DNA from: Pseudomonadota bacterium
GTDB lineage: Bacteria > Pseudomonadota > Gammaproteobacteria > Burkholderiales > Rhodocyclaceae
Assembly (NCBI GenBank): GCA_008501585.1
Contig: QQUN01000001.1
Coordinates: forward strand, 1 to 61,815
Direction: 5' to 3'
Length of the DNA stretch: 61,815 nt
Under the pieces are notes generated by a model that saw only the letters and a list, made by a program, of their open reading frames with translations, ran no database searches and was not told the DNA's origin. Shown piece by piece: positions 37,990 to 53,776 of the stretch. Numbering within the stretch: the stretch's first letter is position 1; the number at the start of each line of letters is the position of its first letter. The translations under genes were made by a program, and so were the position numbers.

Positions 37990-38546
37990 TGGACCGCATC
38001 GCCCATGTGCGCCTGATGGCGCACTACAACCGCTGGATGAACGAGCGCCTCTACGCGGCGGCGGCCACGCTCGATCACGAGGCCCTGCACGCCGACCGCG
38101 GCGCCTTCTTCGGCTCGCTGTTCGGCACGCTCAACCACCTCGTGGTCGCCGACACCATCTGGCTCAAGCGCTTCGCCACGCATCCGGCCTGCCTGACCGC
38201 GCTGGCGCCGCTGCGCGACGAGCCGATGCCTGCCGCGCTCGACGCCCCGCGCTGCCCCGACCTGCCGGCGCTGACCGAACACCGCGCCCGGCTCGACGCC
38301 CTCATTGTCGACTGGACCGGCACGCTCGCCGACGCCGACCTCGACGCGGCGCTGCCCTACCACAACATGCGTGGCATTCCGGCCACGCGCAATGTCTTTG
38401 CCCTGCTGATGCACTTCTTCAACCACCAGACGCACCACCGCGGCCAGGCCACCACCTTGCTGTCGCAGTCCGGCGTCGACATGGGCGCCACCGATCTGTT
38501 GCTGCAGATCCCCGACCTCACCGACCCACCCGTCGCCACCCCGTGA
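37989..38546 (+). CDS. DinB family protein
   Basis: 185 residues, four-helix DinB/YfiT-like fold with putative metal-binding histidines: [15 protein letters not shown] (His about 50) and the [12 protein letters not shown] motif (His about 143-147). Such proteins are metal-dependent hydrolases or bacillithiol/mycothiol-type transferases in other phyla; function here unknown. It overlaps both the YbjQ gene and ruvC at stop/start codons. Confidence 0.85.
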
Positions 38547-39097
38547 GCGGCACCGCCTCCGCCATCACCGCCACCCGCATCCTCGGGCTCGACCCGGGCC
38601 TGCGGGTGACCGGCTTCGGTGTCATCGACACCCTCGGCCAGCAACTGCGCTATGTGGCCAGCGGCTGCATCAAGACTCAGGATGGCGAGCTGCCCGGCCG
38701 GCTCAAGACCCTGCTCGACGGCGTGCGCGAAGTCATCACCACCTACCAGCCCGACCAGGTCGCGGTCGAGAAGGTCTTTGTGAACGTGAACCCGCAGTCC
38801 ACCCTGCTGCTCGGCCAGGCGCGCGGCGCCGTGATCTGCGGCGCGGTGTCCTGCGATCTGCCAGTACTCGAATACACCGCGCTGCAGGTCAAGCAGGCCG
38901 TGGTCGGTCACGGCAAGGCGCACAAGGACCAGGTGCAACACATGGTCCAACGCCTGCTCGCGCTGTCCGCCGCGCCGCAGGCCGATGCCGCCGACGCGCT
39001 GGCCTGCGCCATCTGCCATGCGCATGGCGGGCTGGGGCTGGGCGCGCTGGCCACGGCCGGCATGCGCCGGCGCGGCGGGCGCATCAGCGCGCGGTGA
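38543..39097 (+). CDS. ruvC: Holliday junction resolvase RuvC
   Basis: 184 residues. Catalytic acidic residues are present: Asp in [16 protein letters not shown], Glu in [14 protein letters not shown], Asp pair in [14 protein letters not shown]. Cuts Holliday junctions with RuvAB. Starts with GTG inside the DinB gene's end. It is about 19 kb away from ruvA and ruvB, whereas ruvCAB is usual in many proteobacteria. Confidence 0.97.
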
Positions 39098-44337: not shown

Positions 44338-45324
44338 TCAGCGGTTCACATCCACCACGACGCGGCCGCGGATCTTGCCCGCCATCAGCTCGCCGGCGGC
44401 GTCGATGGCTTCGGACAGGCCGATCTGGTGAGTGATGAGGTCGAGCTTGCGCACATCCAGGTCGGTCGCCAGGCGCGACCACGCCTCCAGGCGGTCGGCC
44501 TTGGGCGCCATCACGCTGTCGATGCCCGCCAGCGTCACGCCGCGCAGGATGAAGGGCGCCACCGTGGACGGAAAATCCATGCCCTGCGCCAGGCCGCAGC
44601 AGGTGACCACGCCGCGGTACCGGGTGGTGGCGCAGACGTTGGCCAGGGTGTGGCTGCCCACGGTATCCACCGCGCCGGCCCAGCGCTCCTTGCCCAGCGG
44701 GCGGCCCGGCTCGGAGAACTGCGCACGGTCCACGATCTCGGCCGCGCCCAGTGTCTTGAGATATTCGCCCTCGGACGGCCGGCCGGTCGAGGCCACCACG
44801 GTGTAACCCAGCTTGGCGAGGATCGCCACCGCCACGCTGCCCACGCCACCGGCCGCGCCGGTGACCAGGATCTCGCCCTTGTCCGGCGTCACGCCATGGC
44901 GCTCCAGCGCCATCACGCACAACATGGCGGTGTAGCCGGCGGTGCCGATGGCCATCGCCTGCTCGGGCTTGAAGGCAGCGGGCAGCGGCACCAGCCAGTC
45001 GCCCTTGAGCCGCGCCTTCTGCGCCAGCCCGCCAGGGTGGCCTTCGCCCACGCCCCAGCCGTTGAGCACCACCGCGTCACCGACCTTGAAGTCGGCATGC
45101 GTGCTGGCCATCACCGTGCCGGCCAGGTCGATGCCCGGCACCATCGGGAACTTGCGCACCACCGGCCCCTTGCCGGTGATCGCCAGGCCGTCCTTGTAGT
45201 TGAGGGTGGAGTAGGCCACCTTCACGGTCACGTCGCCCTCGGGCAGATCGCCGTCGTCCAGGTCCATCAGGTGGGCGGTGTAGCCCTCCGCCTCGGTCTT
45301 GTTGATCACGATGGCTTTGTACAT
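44338..45324 (-). CDS. acuI: Acrylyl-CoA reductase (NADPH)
   Basis: 328 residues of the YhdH/AcuI group of medium-chain reductases lacking zinc ligands. Motifs: [35 protein letters not shown] region, [32 protein letters not shown] (NADPH-binding). AcuI turns acrylyl-CoA into propionyl-CoA in 3-hydroxypropionate and DMSP metabolism. The upstream TetR gene is AcuR-like and an operator precedes this gene, supporting the assignment. Confidence 0.9.
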
Positions 45325-45371
45325 GGTGTTCTCCTCTCTCCTCGTGGCCCCATGCTTGGGGCCAAACCAAT

Positions 45372-45386
45372 TAGACCGATCGTCTA
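45372..45386. promoter_or_regulatory. AcuR-type operator before acuI
   Basis: TAGACCGATCGTCTA, a palindrome with TAGAC/GTCTA arms, 48 bases upstream of the acuI ATG. The same arms occur upstream of the TetR gene (46052-46066), with only the centre differing. Confidence 0.75.
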
Positions 45387-45404
45387 GTTCCGGTCAAAAA
45401 AACG

Positions 45405-46040
45405 TCAGCGTCGGATCGCTGTAAAGAATCCGTCCGTAAAACAGCGCAGCGGCGCGTCGCTGCGCATCAGGCGCGCACGCAACACCGCCCCTTCCCAGCC
45501 CACCCAGAAGAATGCCGCCCAGTGCGCGCAATCGAGGTCGGCCGACAGCGCGCCCTCAGCCTGCGCCGCGCGCAGGCACTGTGCCAAGCGCGCCTGCCAG
45601 TCGGCAAACACCGCCTCCAGCCGGTCGCGGTAGGACTCCGGCAAGGCGCTCATCTCCTGCCCCAGGTTGCCGATCAGGCAGCCGCGGCGGAATTCATGCC
45701 GCGCAATGCCCGCCGCTGCGTCATCGACGAAATCCTCGATCCGTTGCAAGGCCGGCCGGTCAGTGGCCAGGAACCAGCGGTCCAGCTTGCGCGCAAAGTA
45801 ACCGGCGTAGGCCGCGATCACCGCGTGGCCGAAGGCTTCCTTGCTCTCGAAGTAGTGATAGAAGGAGCCCTTCGGCACGCCCACCTTCTTCAACACCTCC
45901 TCGATCCCCGTCGCCGAAAAACCTTTCTCGGTCAGCGTCGCCATGCCACAGCGCACCAGCGCATCGCGGGTGTCGAACGGCTCATTCTGGCGCTTCGGCG
46001 GACGTCCGCGACGGCGCGGCTCGATGTGGGTTTCGCTCAT
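45405..46040 (-). CDS. acuR: TetR family repressor, AcuR-like
   Basis: 211 residues starting at ATG 46040 (MSETHIEPRRRGRPPKRQ). TetR HTH GFSATGIEEVLKKVGVPKGSFYHYFESKEAFG; the effector domain contains RRGCLIGNLGQEMSALPESYRDRL and FWVGWEGAVLRARL, closely resembling AcuR of Rhodobacter, which responds to acrylate. Same strand and upstream of acuI; each gene has its own copy of the operator. Confidence 0.85.
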   Translation of the reverse strand: MSETHIEPRRRGRPPKRQNEPFDTRDALVRCGMATLTEKGFSATGIEEVLKKVGVPKGSFYHYFESKEAFGHAVIAAYAGYFARKLDRWFLATDRPALQRIEDFVDDAAAGIARHEFRRGCLIGNLGQEMSALPESYRDRLEAVFADWQARLAQCLRAAQAEGALSADLDCAHWAAFFWVGWEGAVLRARLMRSDAPLRCFTDGFFTAIRR

Positions 46041-46051
46041 GCAGCGAATAT

Positions 46052-46066
46052 TAGACCAGTCGTCTA
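46052..46066. promoter_or_regulatory. AcuR-type operator before acuR
   Basis: TAGACCAGTCGTCTA, sharing TAGACC and TCGTCTA with the site before acuI. It lies 11 bases upstream of the acuR ATG and so would block transcription or early elongation, consistent with autorepression. Confidence 0.75.
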
Positions 46067-46093
46067 GAAAATCAAGGCTTTTCGTCGGCGTCT

Positions 46094-46112
46094 GTTTCAC
46101 ATCTGTTTCAGT
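46094..46112. promoter_or_regulatory. Tandem CTGTTTCA, possible activator sites
   Basis: CTGTTTCA occurs at 46094-46101 and again at 46105-46112, 11 bp apart (one helical turn). A reverse-oriented partial match, CTGAAAC, lies at 46196-46202. The sites are 150-185 bases upstream of the sigma54 promoter, the usual distance for binding of an enhancer-type activator. Confidence 0.4.
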
Positions 46113-46262: not shown

Positions 46263-46278
46263 TGGCCCGCTTGTTGCG
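46263..46278 (+). promoter_or_regulatory. Sigma54 (-24/-12) promoter
   Basis: TGGCCCGCTTGTTGCG matches TGGCACG-N4-TTGCW at all but two positions, with the invariant GG and GC correctly spaced. It lies 43 bases before the Rieske-protein ATG. An AcoR-type sigma54 activator is encoded at 51872 at the other end of the cluster. Confidence 0.8.
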
Positions 46279-46320: not shown

Positions 46321-46929
46321 ATGAAGCGTGACCAAAGCGGCGGCGCGGCAGGGTGCGGCGCCCAATGCAACGAGGGGCGGCGGGCGGCGCTGAAGCTGTG
46401 CGCGGGAACGGTGATCGGACTGGTCGCCGCGCCGAAGGACAGTGCCTTCGCCAACGAACCCAACCACGCACGCCCCCAGCCCGGCGACCGCCTGGTGCTG
46501 GCCGATGGCAGCCCGGTGGGCACCACGCCGCTGGGCCTCGACAGCGTCTCGGTGGGCGACAAACCGGTGTTCGCCTATCCGGTCGACCCGGCCACCGGCA
46601 CCGTGCGCGATGGCTCCCGGCTCAACCGCGTGGTGCTGATCCGACTGGATCCGGCCGCGCTCGATGAGCGCACCCGCGCCCGCGCCGCCGACGGCGTCCT
46701 CGCCTATTCGGCGGTGTGCACGCATCAGGGCTGTGACGTCACCGAATACAACCCGACCGAGAACGTCCTGTTCTGCTTTTGCCACTTCTCGAAATTCAAG
46801 CCGGCGCACGGCGGGGAGGTGGTTGAGGGGCCGGCACCGCGCAACCTGCCGATGCTGCCGCTGCGCATCGAGGGCGGCCAGCTGGTCGTCGCCGACACCT
46901 TCACTTCCCGACCCGGCGCCACCCTGTAA
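46321..46929 (+). CDS. TAT-exported Rieske iron-sulfur protein
   Basis: 202 residues. The twin-arginine motif NEGRRAALKL followed by a hydrophobic stretch indicates export of the folded protein. The Rieske motifs are CTHQGCDVTEY and CFCHFSKFKP, giving Cys-x-His and Cys-x-x-His ligands plus the two disulfide cysteines of bc1-type, high-potential Rieske proteins. The loop after the second motif lacks the usual Gly-Ser (CHGS reads CHFS). No cytochrome b or c1 gene is adjacent. It is 52 bases before the PQQ dehydrogenase gene and probably carries electrons from it. Confidence 0.85.
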   Translation: MKRDQSGGAAGCGAQCNEGRRAALKLCAGTVIGLVAAPKDSAFANEPNHARPQPGDRLVLADGSPVGTTPLGLDSVSVGDKPVFAYPVDPATGTVRDGSRLNRVVLIRLDPAALDERTRARAADGVLAYSAVCTHQGCDVTEYNPTENVLFCFCHFSKFKPAHGGEVVEGPAPRNLPMLPLRIEGGQLVVADTFTSRPGATL

Positions 46930-46981
46930 GGGGCGTCGCCGTTTTTTGCTCGACCCACCAAGAGGACCGCAGGAGACATCC

Positions 46982-48703
46982 ATGAACAAGAATCTGAAAC
47001 CACTCGTCGCCGCGCTGTTGCTGGCACCCATGCTCGCCACGGCGGCACTGCCCCCCTATGCCCCGGTGACCGACCAGCGGCTCGACAAGCCCGAGCCGCA
47101 CAACTGGTTGTCCTACCGGGGCAACTACGCCGGCTGGGGCTACAGCCCGCTGAGCCAGATCAACTCGGACAACGTCGGCAAGCTGACGCTGGCCTGGTCT
47201 TACGCCACCGGGATGACCGAGGGTCACCAGTCGCCGCCGATCGTCAACAACGGCTACATGTACATCACCACGCCGAACAACCAGGTGATCGCGCTGGAAG
47301 CGGCCACCGGCAAGGAGCTGTGGCGCTACAAGAAGGCCATCCCCGAGGAACTGCAGCAGCTGCACCCGACCAACCGCGGCGTGGCGCTGTATGGCAATCG
47401 CGTCTATCTGGCCACCACCGACGCCAACCTGGTGGCGCTGGACGCGACCACCGGCAAGGAGTTGTGGCGCACCCAGGTGGCCGACTGGCGCAAGGGCTAC
47501 TACATGACGCTCGCGCCGCTGGCCGCCAAGGGCAAGATCATGATCGGCTCCTCGGGCGGCGAATACGGTATCCGCGGCTTTGTGGCGGCCTTCGACGCCG
47601 AGACCGGCAAGGAAGCCTGGCGGACCTATACCATCCCCGCGCCGGGCGAGCCCGGCGGCGACACCTGGCCGGGCGACACCTACAAGCGCGGCGGCGGTTC
47701 GGTGTGGATCACCGGCACCTATGACGCGGACACCAACATTGCCTACTGGGGCGTCGGCAACGCCGGCCCGTGGATGCCCGACACCCGCGCCGGCGACAAC
47801 CTGTATGCCAACTCGACCATCGCGCTCGATGTCGACACCGGCAAGCTCAAGGGCTACCACCAGTACCACCACAACGACGCCTGGGACTGGGACGAGGTGT
47901 CCGCGCCGCTGCTGATCGACATGCCGTACAAGGGCCGCAACATCAAGTCCCTGGTGCATGCCGGCCGCAACGGTTACCTGTGGCTGCTCGACCGCGAGAA
48001 GGGCGGCAAGATCGGCTTCGTGGACGCCTGGCCGTTCGTCGAGCAGAACGTGTTCAAGCACATCGATCCGAAGACCGGCCGGCCGACCTATGCCGAGGAC
48101 CGCATCCCCGGCACCGGCAAGACCGTGCAGTTCTGCCCCTCGCTGTGGGGCGGCAAGGACTGGCCGCCCGAGGCCTACAACCCGAAGACCGGCCTGCTCT
48201 ACATCCCGGCCAACAACCACCTGTGCTCCGAACTCACCGGCGAACCGACCAAGTATCAGGAAGGCCAGCTCTATATCGGCGTCGCGCTGCAGAACATTCT
48301 CACCAACGTGCGCATCGGCGAGAAAGCCAAAACATCCGTGGGCGAGGTTCAGGCCTGGGACATCAAGACCGGCAAGCAGGTGTGGACCCACACCTACCCC
48401 GAGATGAACTGGGGCCCGCTGCTGACCACCGGCGGCAACCTGCTCTTCGGCGGCGGCACCAACGACCGGGAGTTCCGCGCCTTTGATGCCACCAGCGGCA
48501 AGCTGCTGTGGCAGTTCCCGGCACCGTCCGGCGTCACCGGCGTGCCCTCGAGCTTCGAGATCGACGGCGAGCAGTACATCGCCGTTCAGTCGGGCTGGGG
48601 GGTCGATGCCCAGCGCATGCAAGGCGCCTTCGATGCCGTGCTGCCGCACAAGACCGTCGTCCCGCAGGGCGGCACGCTGATGGTGTTCAAGCTCTCCCGC
48701 TAA
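46982..48703 (+). CDS. PQQ-dependent alcohol dehydrogenase, lanthanide-type
   Basis: 573 residues with a signal peptide (LVAALLLAPMLATAALPP) and an eight-bladed quinoprotein propeller with several W-motifs (TGKELWRY, TGKELWRT, TGKLLWQF). Metal/PQQ residues: Glu194 (GGEYGIRGF), Asn260 (GNAGPW), catalytic Asp302 and Asp304 in WDWDEV. Asp two residues after the catalytic Asp marks lanthanide-using XoxF/ExaF/PedH enzymes. The vicinal Cys-Cys found in most of the family is absent (Gln-Leu at 126-127 before NRG). No C-terminal cytochrome domain. Oxidises a primary alcohol or diol in the periplasm. Confidence 0.92.
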   Translation: MNKNLKPLVAALLLAPMLATAALPPYAPVTDQRLDKPEPHNWLSYRGNYAGWGYSPLSQINSDNVGKLTLAWSYATGMTEGHQSPPIVNNGYMYITTPNNQVIALEAATGKELWRYKKAIPEELQQLHPTNRGVALYGNRVYLATTDANLVALDATTGKELWRTQVADWRKGYYMTLAPLAAKGKIMIGSSGGEYGIRGFVAAFDAETGKEAWRTYTIPAPGEPGGDTWPGDTYKRGGGSVWITGTYDADTNIAYWGVGNAGPWMPDTRAGDNLYANSTIALDVDTGKLKGYHQYHHNDAWDWDEVSAPLLIDMPYKGRNIKSLVHAGRNGYLWLLDREKGGKIGFVDAWPFVEQNVFKHIDPKTGRPTYAEDRIPGTGKTVQFCPSLWGGKDWPPEAYNPKTGLLYIPANNHLCSELTGEPTKYQEGQLYIGVALQNILTNVRIGEKAKTSVGEVQAWDIKTGKQVWTHTYPEMNWGPLLTTGGNLLFGGGTNDREFRAFDATSGKLLWQFPAPSGVTGVPSSFEIDGEQYIAVQSGWGVDAQRMQGAFDAVLPHKTVVPQGGTLMVFKLSR

Positions 48704-48802: not shown

Positions 48803-49642
48803 ATGACCCAAGCTTCATCGCACCTGCGCCGCCTGCTGCTCGGCAGCGCCCTGCTCCTGTCGAGCCTCGCCCAGGCACAGACCACCTTCGACGTCATCGG
48901 CCCGCACGAATACGAGCTGCCGGTGGGCTTCGAGCCGTTCAACGTCTTCGTGCAGTACGCCTACGTCCAGCGCAACAACCGGAAGTTCGACACCGACGGC
49001 GACCGCGTCAAGGGCTCGGGCAGCACCACCATCGTCGGCCTGTCGAAGTACGTCCGCTTCTGGACGCCGGAGTCGAACCCCAACATCGGCCTCGCCTACG
49101 AAGTCATCGTCCCGGAAATCAGCGTGCGCGACCACCGCGCCAACACCCAGGCCAGCGGCATCGGCGATCCGCTCACCGGCTTCGCCATCTGGTACAAGCC
49201 CACGCCCGACAGCACGCTCGGCTTCCAGTCCTTCATCCAGATCCCGGCCGGCGGCTCCGATGTCAGCGACACCAACTGGAAGAACCTCTCCAGCGTGCTG
49301 TGGGATGTGCGCCTGACCGACCGCCTCGGCTGGACGGCCGACGCCGGGTTCGTCTTCCAGGGCGAGAAGACCGACGGCACCCGGCCGGGCACCTCCTTCC
49401 ACACCAACCAGCGCCTGGGCTACCGCGCCACCCCCTTGCTCGAGCCCTTCGTGGCGGTGGACTACGAGCGCTCGGCCAAGACGTCGACGGTGGCCGGCAG
49501 CCACGTCCTCGACGCCGGCCTGGGGCTGATGCTGCATACCTTCGACAACCAGTCCATCACCCTGCGCTATTCCAAGAGCGTCAGCGGTGAGAACCACGCC
49601 GCCAACAACAGCTTCAACCTCAAGTACGCCTACGTGTGGTGA
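48803..49642 (+). CDS. Outer-membrane channel-like protein (MetA-pathway phenol family)
   Basis: 279 residues with a signal peptide (LLLGSALLLSSLAQAQ). The mature part has alternating beta-strand patterns and ends in an aromatic residue (NLKYAYVW), typical of outer-membrane barrels. It resembles the transporter-like family with Phenol_MetA_deg (SphA-type) domain, linked to uptake of alcohols and aromatics. In this operon it may admit the substrate of the quinoprotein. Confidence 0.75.
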   Translation: MTQASSHLRRLLLGSALLLSSLAQAQTTFDVIGPHEYELPVGFEPFNVFVQYAYVQRNNRKFDTDGDRVKGSGSTTIVGLSKYVRFWTPESNPNIGLAYEVIVPEISVRDHRANTQASGIGDPLTGFAIWYKPTPDSTLGFQSFIQIPAGGSDVSDTNWKNLSSVLWDVRLTDRLGWTADAGFVFQGEKTDGTRPGTSFHTNQRLGYRATPLLEPFVAVDYERSAKTSTVAGSHVLDAGLGLMLHTFDNQSITLRYSKSVSGENHAANNSFNLKYAYVW

Positions 49643-49697: not shown

Positions 49698-50165
49698 ATG
49701 AAATTCCTTCACGCCCTTGCTTTGAGCATCGCCCTGCTGGTCGCGCTTTGGGTCTACCTGAGCGTCGGCAACCCGGACTTCCGCTTCACCCCCTGGATCG
49801 GCTTCGTCGCCTGGGCCGCCTACTTCGCCGCCGGCGGCGGCGCGGACGGCGTACGCAAGTCGATCGCCGCCGGGCTGGCCGGTGCGCTGCTCACCGCCGT
49901 CACGCTGTACGGCGTCCAGGCGCTCGGCGGCAGCCTGGTGGCCTTGATCGGTCTGGTCGCGGTCCTCGCCTTCGTGCTCGTCGCCATGGCCGACATCCCG
50001 GCGCTGGCCTACACCCCCGCTGCCTTCCTGGGCGCCGCCTGCTTCTTCGGCTCGGGCGCCAAGCTCGACGCCAGCGCCCTGTTCGTCTGCGTGACCTGGT
50101 GTCTCGGCGTGCTCTTCGGCCTGCTCTCCGAACACATCGGCAAACGCCTCGCCCGCCCGGCCTGA
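49698..50165 (+). CDS. DUF1097 membrane protein
   Basis: 155 residues with five hydrophobic helices; PDFRFTPWIGFVAWAAYFAAGG and the small-residue-rich core fit DUF1097 (YcdZ-like). Function unknown; its place between the outer-membrane protein and the aldehyde dehydrogenase suggests a role in substrate or aldehyde passage across the inner membrane. AAGGAGA ribosome site. Confidence 0.75.
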   Translation: MKFLHALALSIALLVALWVYLSVGNPDFRFTPWIGFVAWAAYFAAGGGADGVRKSIAAGLAGALLTAVTLYGVQALGGSLVALIGLVAVLAFVLVAMADIPALAYTPAAFLGAACFFGSGAKLDASALFVCVTWCLGVLFGLLSEHIGKRLARPA

Positions 50166-50221
50166 CCGGCCAACGCCCCGCCAACCCCAACGTTGCAACC
50201 CCCATCCCCTGGAGAAATACC

Positions 50222-51661
50222 ATGACGAGGAAACTGGAAAACTTCATCAACGGCCGCTTTGTCAGCGGCGACGGCCTCGAACACATCGAGGTCCGCAACC
50301 CCGCCAACGGTGAGCTGCTCGCCCACTTCCCGCTATCCAACCAGGCCGTGGTTGACGAGGCCTTGCACGCCGCGCGGCGCGCTCAGCCGGCCTGGGAAGC
50401 ACTGCCGGCGATCCAGCGGGCCGGCTATCTGCGCAAGATCGCCAGCCGTATCCGCAGCAACGCCGAGGCGCTGGCCGACACCATCACCCGCGAGCAGGGC
50501 AAGGTGCTCGGCCTGGCCCGGGTGGAGGTCGACTTCACCGCCGACTACATCGACTACATGGCCGAGTGGGCCCGCCGGATCGAAGGCGAGGTGATCCCCA
50601 GCGACCGCGTCGGCGAGAGCATCTTCCTGATGCGCCGCCCCATCGGCGTCACCGTCGGCATCCTGCCGTGGAACTTCCCGTTCTTCCTCATCGCGCGGAA
50701 GATGGCCCCGGCGCTGGTCACCGGCAACACCATCGTCATCAAGCCCAGCGAAGAGACGCCGATCAACGCCTTCGACTTCGCCCGCCTGGTCGACCAGGCC
50801 GAATTGCCGCCGGGGGTGTTCAACGTGGTCGGCGGCAATGGCGCCGGTGCCGGCGCGCAACTGGCCGGCTCCCCTGCGGTCAATCTGGTCAGCTTCACCG
50901 GCAGCGTGGCCACCGGCAAGCGCATCATGGCCGCCGCCGCCCCCAACCTGACCCGTGTCAACCTCGAGCTCGGCGGCAAGGCACCGGCCATCGTCACCGC
51001 CCAGGCCGACCTCGACCTGGCCGCCAAGGCCATCTGCGACTCGCGGGTGATCAACACCGGGCAAGTGTGCAACTGCGCCGAGCGGGTCTATGTCGAGCGG
51101 GCCGTCGCCCGGGAGTTCACCGACAAGGTCACGCGGCGGATGGCCGATGTGCGCTTTGGCGACCCCATCGCCGACCCGTCGGTGCACATGGGGCCGCTGG
51201 TCAACAAGACCGGGCTGGACAAAGTCGCCGCCATGGTCGACCGTGCCCGCGCCGACGGTGCCGAGGCGGTGCTGGGCGGCAGCGTGGCCCCGGGTGACAC
51301 CGGCTATCACTATCTGCCGACGGTGCTGGTCAACTGCCGGCACGACATGGAGATCATGCGCGCCGAAATCTTCGGGCCGGTATTGCCGATCCAGGTGGTC
51401 GACAGCCTCGACGAAGCCATCGCCTGCGCCAACGACTCCGACTACGGCCTGACCTCGTCGATCTTCACCCGCGACCTGAAAGAAGCGATGCACGCCTGCA
51501 ACGCGCTGAAGTTCGGCGAGACCTACGTCAACCGCGAGCACTTCGAAGCCATGCAGGGCTTCCATGCCGGCCGGCGGCACTCCGGCATTGGCGGCGCCGA
51601 CGGCAAGCACGGCCTGCTCGAGTACACCGAAACACAGGTGGTGTACCTGCAGCACGGCTGA
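50222..51661 (+). CDS. aldA: Aldehyde dehydrogenase, lactaldehyde/glycolaldehyde (AldA) type
   Basis: 479 residues, close along the whole length to E. coli AldA as I recall it (FTADYIDYMAEWARR, TGILPWNFPFFLIARKMAPAL-like, DSRVINTGQVCNCAERVYV, FGETYVNREHFEAMQGFHAG). Catalytic Cys is in GQVCNCAERV and Glu in NLELGGKAP. No signal peptide, so cytosolic and NAD-dependent. AldA oxidises lactaldehyde and glycolaldehyde, which suggests the quinoprotein's substrate is a small diol, but ethanol-type substrates are also possible. Confidence 0.9.
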   Translation: MTRKLENFINGRFVSGDGLEHIEVRNPANGELLAHFPLSNQAVVDEALHAARRAQPAWEALPAIQRAGYLRKIASRIRSNAEALADTITREQGKVLGLARVEVDFTADYIDYMAEWARRIEGEVIPSDRVGESIFLMRRPIGVTVGILPWNFPFFLIARKMAPALVTGNTIVIKPSEETPINAFDFARLVDQAELPPGVFNVVGGNGAGAGAQLAGSPAVNLVSFTGSVATGKRIMAAAAPNLTRVNLELGGKAPAIVTAQADLDLAAKAICDSRVINTGQVCNCAERVYVERAVAREFTDKVTRRMADVRFGDPIADPSVHMGPLVNKTGLDKVAAMVDRARADGAEAVLGGSVAPGDTGYHYLPTVLVNCRHDMEIMRAEIFGPVLPIQVVDSLDEAIACANDSDYGLTSSIFTRDLKEAMHACNALKFGETYVNREHFEAMQGFHAGRRHSGIGGADGKHGLLEYTETQVVYLQHG

Positions 51662-51732: not shown

Positions 51733-51871
51733 CACCGGCTGCGTCCGCGCGCACAGAAAGAAGCCCGGCCTGCCTTGATGCCGTCCCGCACGGCACCTAC
51801 TATTCACCGATACACCGAAAGAACTATAAGGGGCATGGTCATCGCCAATGTCCCGACGTGGGGAGACCACA

Positions 51872-53776
<1,905 letters not shown>

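Follow-up and report, generated by a model that had tools for sequence, protein, structure and literature searches.

The closest described systems are PQQ-dependent dehydrogenases of the ExaA/PedH type, the XoxF-XoxG methanol dehydrogenase, Gcd of E. coli, arsenite oxidase (AioAB) and the Rieske protein of Thermus thermophilus. Gcd, which contains a membrane domain, delivers its electrons to ubiquinone and not to cytochrome c. The Rieske subunit of AioAB is partnered by a molybdenum enzyme, and it passes electrons to cytochrome c. In enzymes of the ExaA/PedH type, a ring made by two neighboring cysteines lies close to the PQQ, and passages of PMC12997753 (citing Mennenga 2009) link these cysteines to electron transfer to cytochrome c550. 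The locus described here combines a PQQ dehydrogenase with a Rieske protein, and below we compare it with each of these systems.

The window (the whole 61.8 kb stretch of DNA analysed) corresponds to contig C21 in a genome of 4.3 Mb. On its plus strand it carries, in this order, genes for a Rieske protein, a PQQ dehydrogenase, a secreted protein, a DUF1097 protein, an AldA-type aldehyde dehydrogenase and a sigma-54 regulator. The first-pass annotation had proposed a TAT-type, bc1-type Rieske protein directly before the quinoprotein, and our analysis agreed. The Rieske [2Fe-2S] protein (46321..46929, + strand) is 202 aa long, has the loops CTHQGC and CFCHFSKF, and matched Pfam PF00355 at 38.3 bits (cut-off 20.3); its gene ends 52 nt before that of the dehydrogenase. 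The twin-arginine signal was assigned by motif: a twin Arg, a hydrophobic stretch and an AFA site were all recognized by eye, and the Pfam TAT model gave no match on this protein. The AFA site following the twin Arg and the hydrophobic stretch suggests that the protein is cleaved and soluble.

The nearest solved relatives of the window’s Rieske protein were 3fou (E = 4e-33) and 1nyk (E = 5e-33), aligned over approximately residues 52–198. The predicted structure (mean pLDDT 85) matched 1nyk with TM scores of 0.96 (target) and 0.74 (query). The T. thermophilus protein (1nyk) is the closest solved protein in fold and sequence together, but its second loop reads CPCHGG, unlike that of the window’s protein. 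It had also been claimed that this loop of the window’s protein lacks the Gly-Ser of CHGS. The loop reads C-F-C-H-F-S-K-F; that is, the Gly is indeed replaced by Phe, but the Ser is retained.

The type I PQQ-dependent alcohol dehydrogenase (46982..48703, + strand; 573 aa) matched TIGR03075, the methanol/ethanol family of PQQ-dependent dehydrogenases, at 590 bits (cut-off 480). Its start at 46982 was placed by eye within a longest open frame that begins at 46664, because a signal peptide and a ribosome site fit there. A structure model (mean pLDDT 82) had the beta-propeller fold of this family and a TM score of 0.86 against 6zcv, the best PDB match of the enzyme by both sequence and structure. 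In alignments, Asp302 fell on Asp466 of E. coli Gcd and on the corresponding Asp in XoxF-like and PedH-like controls, a position that we take to be the catalytic Asp of PQQ dehydrogenases. The window’s enzyme shares family, fold and catalytic Asp with PedH/ExaA. It differs in having no vicinal Cys-Cys and no adjoining gene for cytochrome c550 (PedF/ExaB), and in having a Rieske gene instead. PQQ synthesis seems to be present in the window’s genome, which yielded two PqqE matches above cut-off.

Two further features of the dehydrogenase were considered. The window’s enzyme has Asp304, the extra Asp of the lanthanide type, two residues past the catalytic Asp; among the 35 dehydrogenases paired with a Rieske gene (see below), this position was Asp in 26 (the Deinococcus enzyme included) and Ala in nine. 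The XoxF-XoxG methanol dehydrogenase shares the Asp with those 26, and an equivalent Asp also occurs in E. coli Gcd, which weakens the residue as proof of lanthanide use. Cys385/Cys415 was considered as a Rieske-specific disulfide and was rejected, because this pair is present in many controls.

We gathered relatives of the Rieske protein from named genomes, from samples of 300 genomes of the order, 369 of the class and 398 of the phylum, and from plasmid records. The resulting 36 loci comprised the window, four of five loci from named genomes, ten from the order, two from the class, 11 from the phylum and eight from plasmids. In the order sample, 22 Rieske matches were found in 21 of the 300 genomes; 11 weak, partial matches (L017–L027), with no dehydrogenase within their 1.5 kb flanks, were left out. 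Also left out before counting was L005 from Planctomycetota, which gave no match to a PQQ dehydrogenase and whose Rieske identity was 35% across 71 residues. The plasmid search gave 25 Rieske records, of which ten were examined and eight had the pair. The two others were from Kozakia and Thermus; on the one Thermus plasmid examined, the related Rieske gene has no annotated PQQ dehydrogenase alongside.

In 35 of the 36 loci, all of them collected by Rieske homology, the immediate neighbor of the Rieske gene was a dehydrogenase gene on the same strand; the remaining locus is cut short by a contig end. Gene order was reversed in five of the 35 (L064, L093, L096, L097, L099), indicating that the link between the two genes outlives rearrangement. 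The hosts were Alpha-, Beta- and Gammaproteobacteria and one Deinococcus; those with names include Denitromonas, Methyloversatilis, Azoarcus, Roseomonas, Paracoccus, Methylobacterium and Alteromonas. Denitromonas ohlonensis held the closest named relative of the pair, with 81% identity in the Rieske protein and 94% in the dehydrogenase.

The reverse search, with the dehydrogenase as query, was run on the order, phylum and plasmid samples. In the order sample, Rieske matches below 1e-30 came from 11 of the 300 genomes, exactly those that had a dehydrogenase of at least 50% identity, although in one of them (G126) the two genes were on separate contig ends. The Rieske and dehydrogenase sets of the phylum sample were the same 12 of 398 genomes, the dehydrogenase set having in addition G285, whose dehydrogenase (44% identity) has Cys-Cys and no Rieske motif alongside. 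On plasmids, the nine best dehydrogenase records (at least 45% identity) were all Rieske records. There were 33 weaker plasmid records, and none of the 31 listed was among the 20 listed of the 25 Rieske records. The lower tier of the order sample (nine dehydrogenase matches at 41–45% identity) had no CTHxGC/CxCH motif in the short flanks; a CXXCH open reading frame, recognized by motif only, lay within the stretch in six of these nine loci. We concluded that the pair is conserved in related genomes, a check that the first-pass annotation had called for. No description of a Rieske-PQQ dehydrogenase pairing was found among the matches listed in the open-access full text searched.

Control dehydrogenases had other neighbors. 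Seven controls came from plasmids, with an annotated cytochrome c nearby in four, a high-potential iron-sulfur protein (HiPIP) in two and neither in one. In Variovorax (L119:3501-5642) the PQQ dehydrogenase adjoins the gene annotated as HiPIP, and in Burkholderia multivorans (L121:3390-6819) it is one gene away; both dehydrogenases retain Cys-Cys, and an NCBIfam scan of the L119 protein yielded no family. The HiPIP is perhaps another non-haem acceptor. In a separate observation, three Paracoccus plasmids and one Alteromonas plasmid encode a secreted protein of 136–153 aa after the Rieske gene (L093:4177-4587, L096:8495-8935, L097:8586-9047, L099:8465-8911), of which the L096 copy matched no Pfam family.

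Both Rieske motifs, C-x-H-x-x-C and C-x-C-H, which supply the ligands and the two disulfide cysteines, were present at all 36 loci (CTHQGC and CFCH in the window), and a twin Arg lay upstream of the cluster motifs in every one of the proteins. The Gly of CHGS was retained in seven of 36, and the following residue was Ser in 34 and Thr in two. At the position of the bc1 Tyr, 30 proteins had Phe and six had Tyr. Loss of the hydrogen bond from this Tyr lowers the potential of a Rieske cluster by tens of millivolts. We also observed a Cys, often as C-x-C or CC, ahead of the twin Arg (46321-46383 in the window). A script found it in 22 of 36 proteins, and by-eye correction of five rows, where the script had taken an earlier Arg pair, raised the count to 27, with start codons unsure; in L095 these cysteines precede the annotated start.

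The dehydrogenases themselves differ from controls at the site of the vicinal disulfide. In the window’s enzyme the Cys-Cys site is occupied by Leu127-His128, and 34 of the 35 paired dehydrogenases have X-His there. The exception, a single record from Deinococcus aetherius, retains Cys-Cys, which shows that loss of the disulfide is not required for pairing. Of 25 controls, 23 contained the region: Cys-Cys was present in 19, and the other four had neither Cys-Cys nor His. Six of the seven plasmid controls had Cys-Cys, and the pattern was ambiguous for the seventh. His128 aligned with His262 of E. coli Gcd, which is likewise without Cys-Cys; Gcd thus has a His at the same place as the window’s enzyme, at 25% overall identity. 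Pro85, His128, Thr130, Tyr174, Arg496, Val541 and Asp542 were each shared by 33 or all 34 of the paired enzymes that lack Cys-Cys, and occurred in none of the 19 controls that have it.

Phylogenetic trees placed the paired dehydrogenases in one clade (99/95 with the first controls, and 100/97 with the seven plasmid controls added), where ‘clade’ assumes a root outside the paired set because the trees were midpoint-rooted. The trees contained 29 of the 35 paired rows, the near-copies L001, L002, L056, L058, L059 and L060 being left out, together with 22 non-paired rows in the first tree and 23 in the second. Fragmentary and highly divergent controls were omitted from both, and the second tree was also without five more rows and Gcd. 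Some of the controls were near-copies of one another, namely five XoxF-like rows of one genus and three tandem rows at L091. The latter locus (genome G131 of the order sample) has three tandem PQQ dehydrogenase frames, all with Cys-Cys, and G131 carries its Rieske pair elsewhere.

The Deinococcus dehydrogenase was the first branch of the paired clade, within which two groups differ in having Asp or Ala two residues past the catalytic Asp. The Rieske tree was weakly resolved and neither shows nor excludes a single origin; its outgroup, on a long branch, consists of ten proteins that resemble arsenite oxidase small subunits. Across 19 non-redundant pairs, the pairwise distances of the Rieske and dehydrogenase proteins were correlated (r = 0.58, a value reached by none of 2000 permutations), a result that joint vertical descent alone would also give. 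There is about an even chance that one PQQ branch exchanged cytochrome c for an exported Rieske protein once, and that the disulfide gave way to His later, after Deinococcus had split off.

The route suggested by the first-pass annotation, from the quinoprotein to the Rieske protein and on to the respiratory chain, gains support from the conservation of the pair and from the loss of Cys-Cys in nearly all paired enzymes. We observed the pairing in both search directions, a single dehydrogenase clade, the loss of Cys-Cys in 34 of 35 enzymes, and no recognizable cytochrome c gene in the window; we infer the export, the contact of the two proteins, the transfer and its direction, the downstream acceptor and the substrate. 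In the proposed mechanism, the periplasmic PQQ dehydrogenase would oxidize an alcohol, possibly a 1,2-diol or a related compound, and the co-encoded AldA-type enzyme would oxidize the resulting aldehyde further. The reduced PQQ would be reoxidized, one electron at a time, by the [2Fe-2S] cluster of the exported Rieske protein, which would stand in for cytochrome c550/cL and make the first transfer step heme-free. From there electrons may pass to the cytochrome c pool or to an oxidase, by analogy with the Rieske subunit of arsenite oxidase, and the replacement of the vicinal disulfide by His128 would be a consequence of the switch to another acceptor. The Rieske protein is probably the dedicated acceptor of electrons from reduced PQQ, feeding the cytochrome c pool or an oxidase. 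AioAB resembles this arrangement as a periplasmic oxidase with a Rieske subunit, and the title of entry 8ed4 indicates that the enzyme feeds cytochrome c552; however, the match of the window’s Rieske protein to arsenite oxidase (E = 3e-10) was far weaker than its match to the Thermus protein (E = 5e-33).

The alternative that survives best, though we consider it unlikely, is that a cytochrome c from elsewhere in the genome is the direct acceptor and that the Rieske protein is accessory, serving in maturation, in redox sensing or in keeping the enzyme oxidized. The window’s genome could supply such a cytochrome, having 34 matches to the cytochrome c family PF13442 in addition to other PQQ dehydrogenases, and the Cys-Cys kept by the paired Deinococcus dehydrogenase fits this explanation as well. 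Haem genes near the pair were sought as CXXCH motifs in open reading frames of at least 80 aa across the fetched stretches (up to 20 kb). A di-haem protein lay within about 1.1 kb of the pair in three of 36 loci (L029, L064, L097), a sub-threshold cytochrome P460-like protein lay 3.7 kb away in L094, and several other loci had CXXCH frames at 4–10 kb, mostly known by motif only. Against this explanation, no cytochrome gene was a constant neighbor of the pair, and 18 of the 36 stretches had no CXXCH frame of at least 80 aa at all. The 61.8 kb window contained no cytochrome c-like frame of that length, confirming the earlier remark that the cluster lacks a cytochrome c; its only CXXCH frame (38543-39097) has an N-terminus that resembles RuvC. 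The Rieske gene, in contrast, was constant, by selection of the loci and also in the reverse searches, and the cytochrome-linked Cys-Cys was lost from all paired dehydrogenases but one.

Two other haem-related arrangements were observed. In seven of eight loci of one genus (L054, L055, L056, L058, L059, L060, L062), a second, XoxF-like PQQ dehydrogenase gene is followed by a CXXCH frame approximately 6–9 kb from the pair. These XoxF-like genes retain Cys-Cys and have the CXXCH frame next to them, unlike the paired enzymes; together with the pair they perhaps form a shared lanthanide regulon. Contig C27 of the window’s genome (L068:3357-7374) has another Rieske gene (273 aa) near a frame of 780 aa on the opposite strand with eight CXXCH motifs.

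It is very unlikely that the dehydrogenase delivers electrons directly to ubiquinone or another membrane carrier, as Gcd does, with the Rieske protein in a side branch. The alignment of His128 with His262 of Gcd, also an enzyme without Cys-Cys, is in keeping with such a route, but the window’s dehydrogenase seems to be made with a cleavable signal and to be without a membrane domain, and its model is nearest to type I enzymes; this apparent architecture makes direct access to quinone improbable. Least likely of all is a spare or alternative cytochrome bc1 subunit encoded here by chance, which we set aside as a main reading. In its favor, the protein is of the bc type, the solved relative with the best E-value (3fou) carries the deposited name of a quinol-cytochrome c reductase subunit, and exchangeable Rieske subunits are reported in Rubrivivax. 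However, the genome’s sole match to the cytochrome b family PF00032 is on contig C56, not on C21, and has another Rieske gene at a distance of about 1 kb, so that this complex can probably do without the window’s Rieske protein. Both the AFA site (by eye), which suggests a cleaved form in place of the uncleaved N-terminal membrane anchor expected of a bc1 subunit, and the linkage to a dehydrogenase in nearly all loci also point away from it.

The remaining genes of the operon may indicate what is oxidized. The dehydrogenase gene is followed by that of a secreted protein, perhaps an outer-membrane beta-barrel (48803..49642, + strand; its BBP2 match was sub-threshold only), with relatives in eight of 36 loci, and by a DUF1097 membrane protein gene (49698..50165, + strand) with relatives in seven. 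The AldA-type aldehyde dehydrogenase (50201..51661, + strand) is 60% identical to E. coli AldA, and an enzyme more than 50% identical to it was present in 13 of 36 loci. LutB relatives occurred in four of 36 loci, and the Alteromonas locus also had an FMN-dependent hydroxy-acid oxidase. Because these three enzymes fit a path from diol through hydroxyaldehyde to hydroxyacid, we tentatively suggest a 1,2-diol as the substrate, an assignment that we regard as possible rather than probable.

A GAF-AAA-Fis sigma-54-dependent regulator (51848..53776, + strand), with relatives in nine of 36 loci, is perhaps the regulator of the operon. Upstream of the operon, a strict pattern search found a −24/−12 sigma-54 promoter-like site (46263..46277, + strand) that finishes 43 bases ahead of the Rieske start codon; it was the single match in the window, where 0.47 would be expected by chance and 39 of 100 shuffled versions had matches. 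The site was identical at about −60 in L001 and L002, similar at −220 in L028 and looser at −289 in L032, and none was found by pattern in the other loci. We thus rejected a sigma-54 site as a feature common to all pairs, since it is absent by pattern from most loci. Divergent from the operon are genes for an AcuI acrylyl-CoA reductase and an AcuR regulator (44338-46100); L001 and L002 likewise have them beside the pair, and L003 and L004 do not.

Annotation of these loci would gain from treating the two genes together, because annotated public records name the Rieske and dehydrogenase genes separately. Importance for the family lies in the acceptor: published accounts have PQQ alcohol dehydrogenases passing electrons to cytochrome c or to quinone, and a Rieske protein conserved as acceptor would be a further route. 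The Deinococcus pair, which has the vicinal disulfide, and the other 34, which do not, offer a natural test of the role of this disulfide. If a single exchange of acceptor was indeed followed by a later loss of the disulfide, then the disulfide would have evolved to suit the acceptor rather than to serve catalysis.
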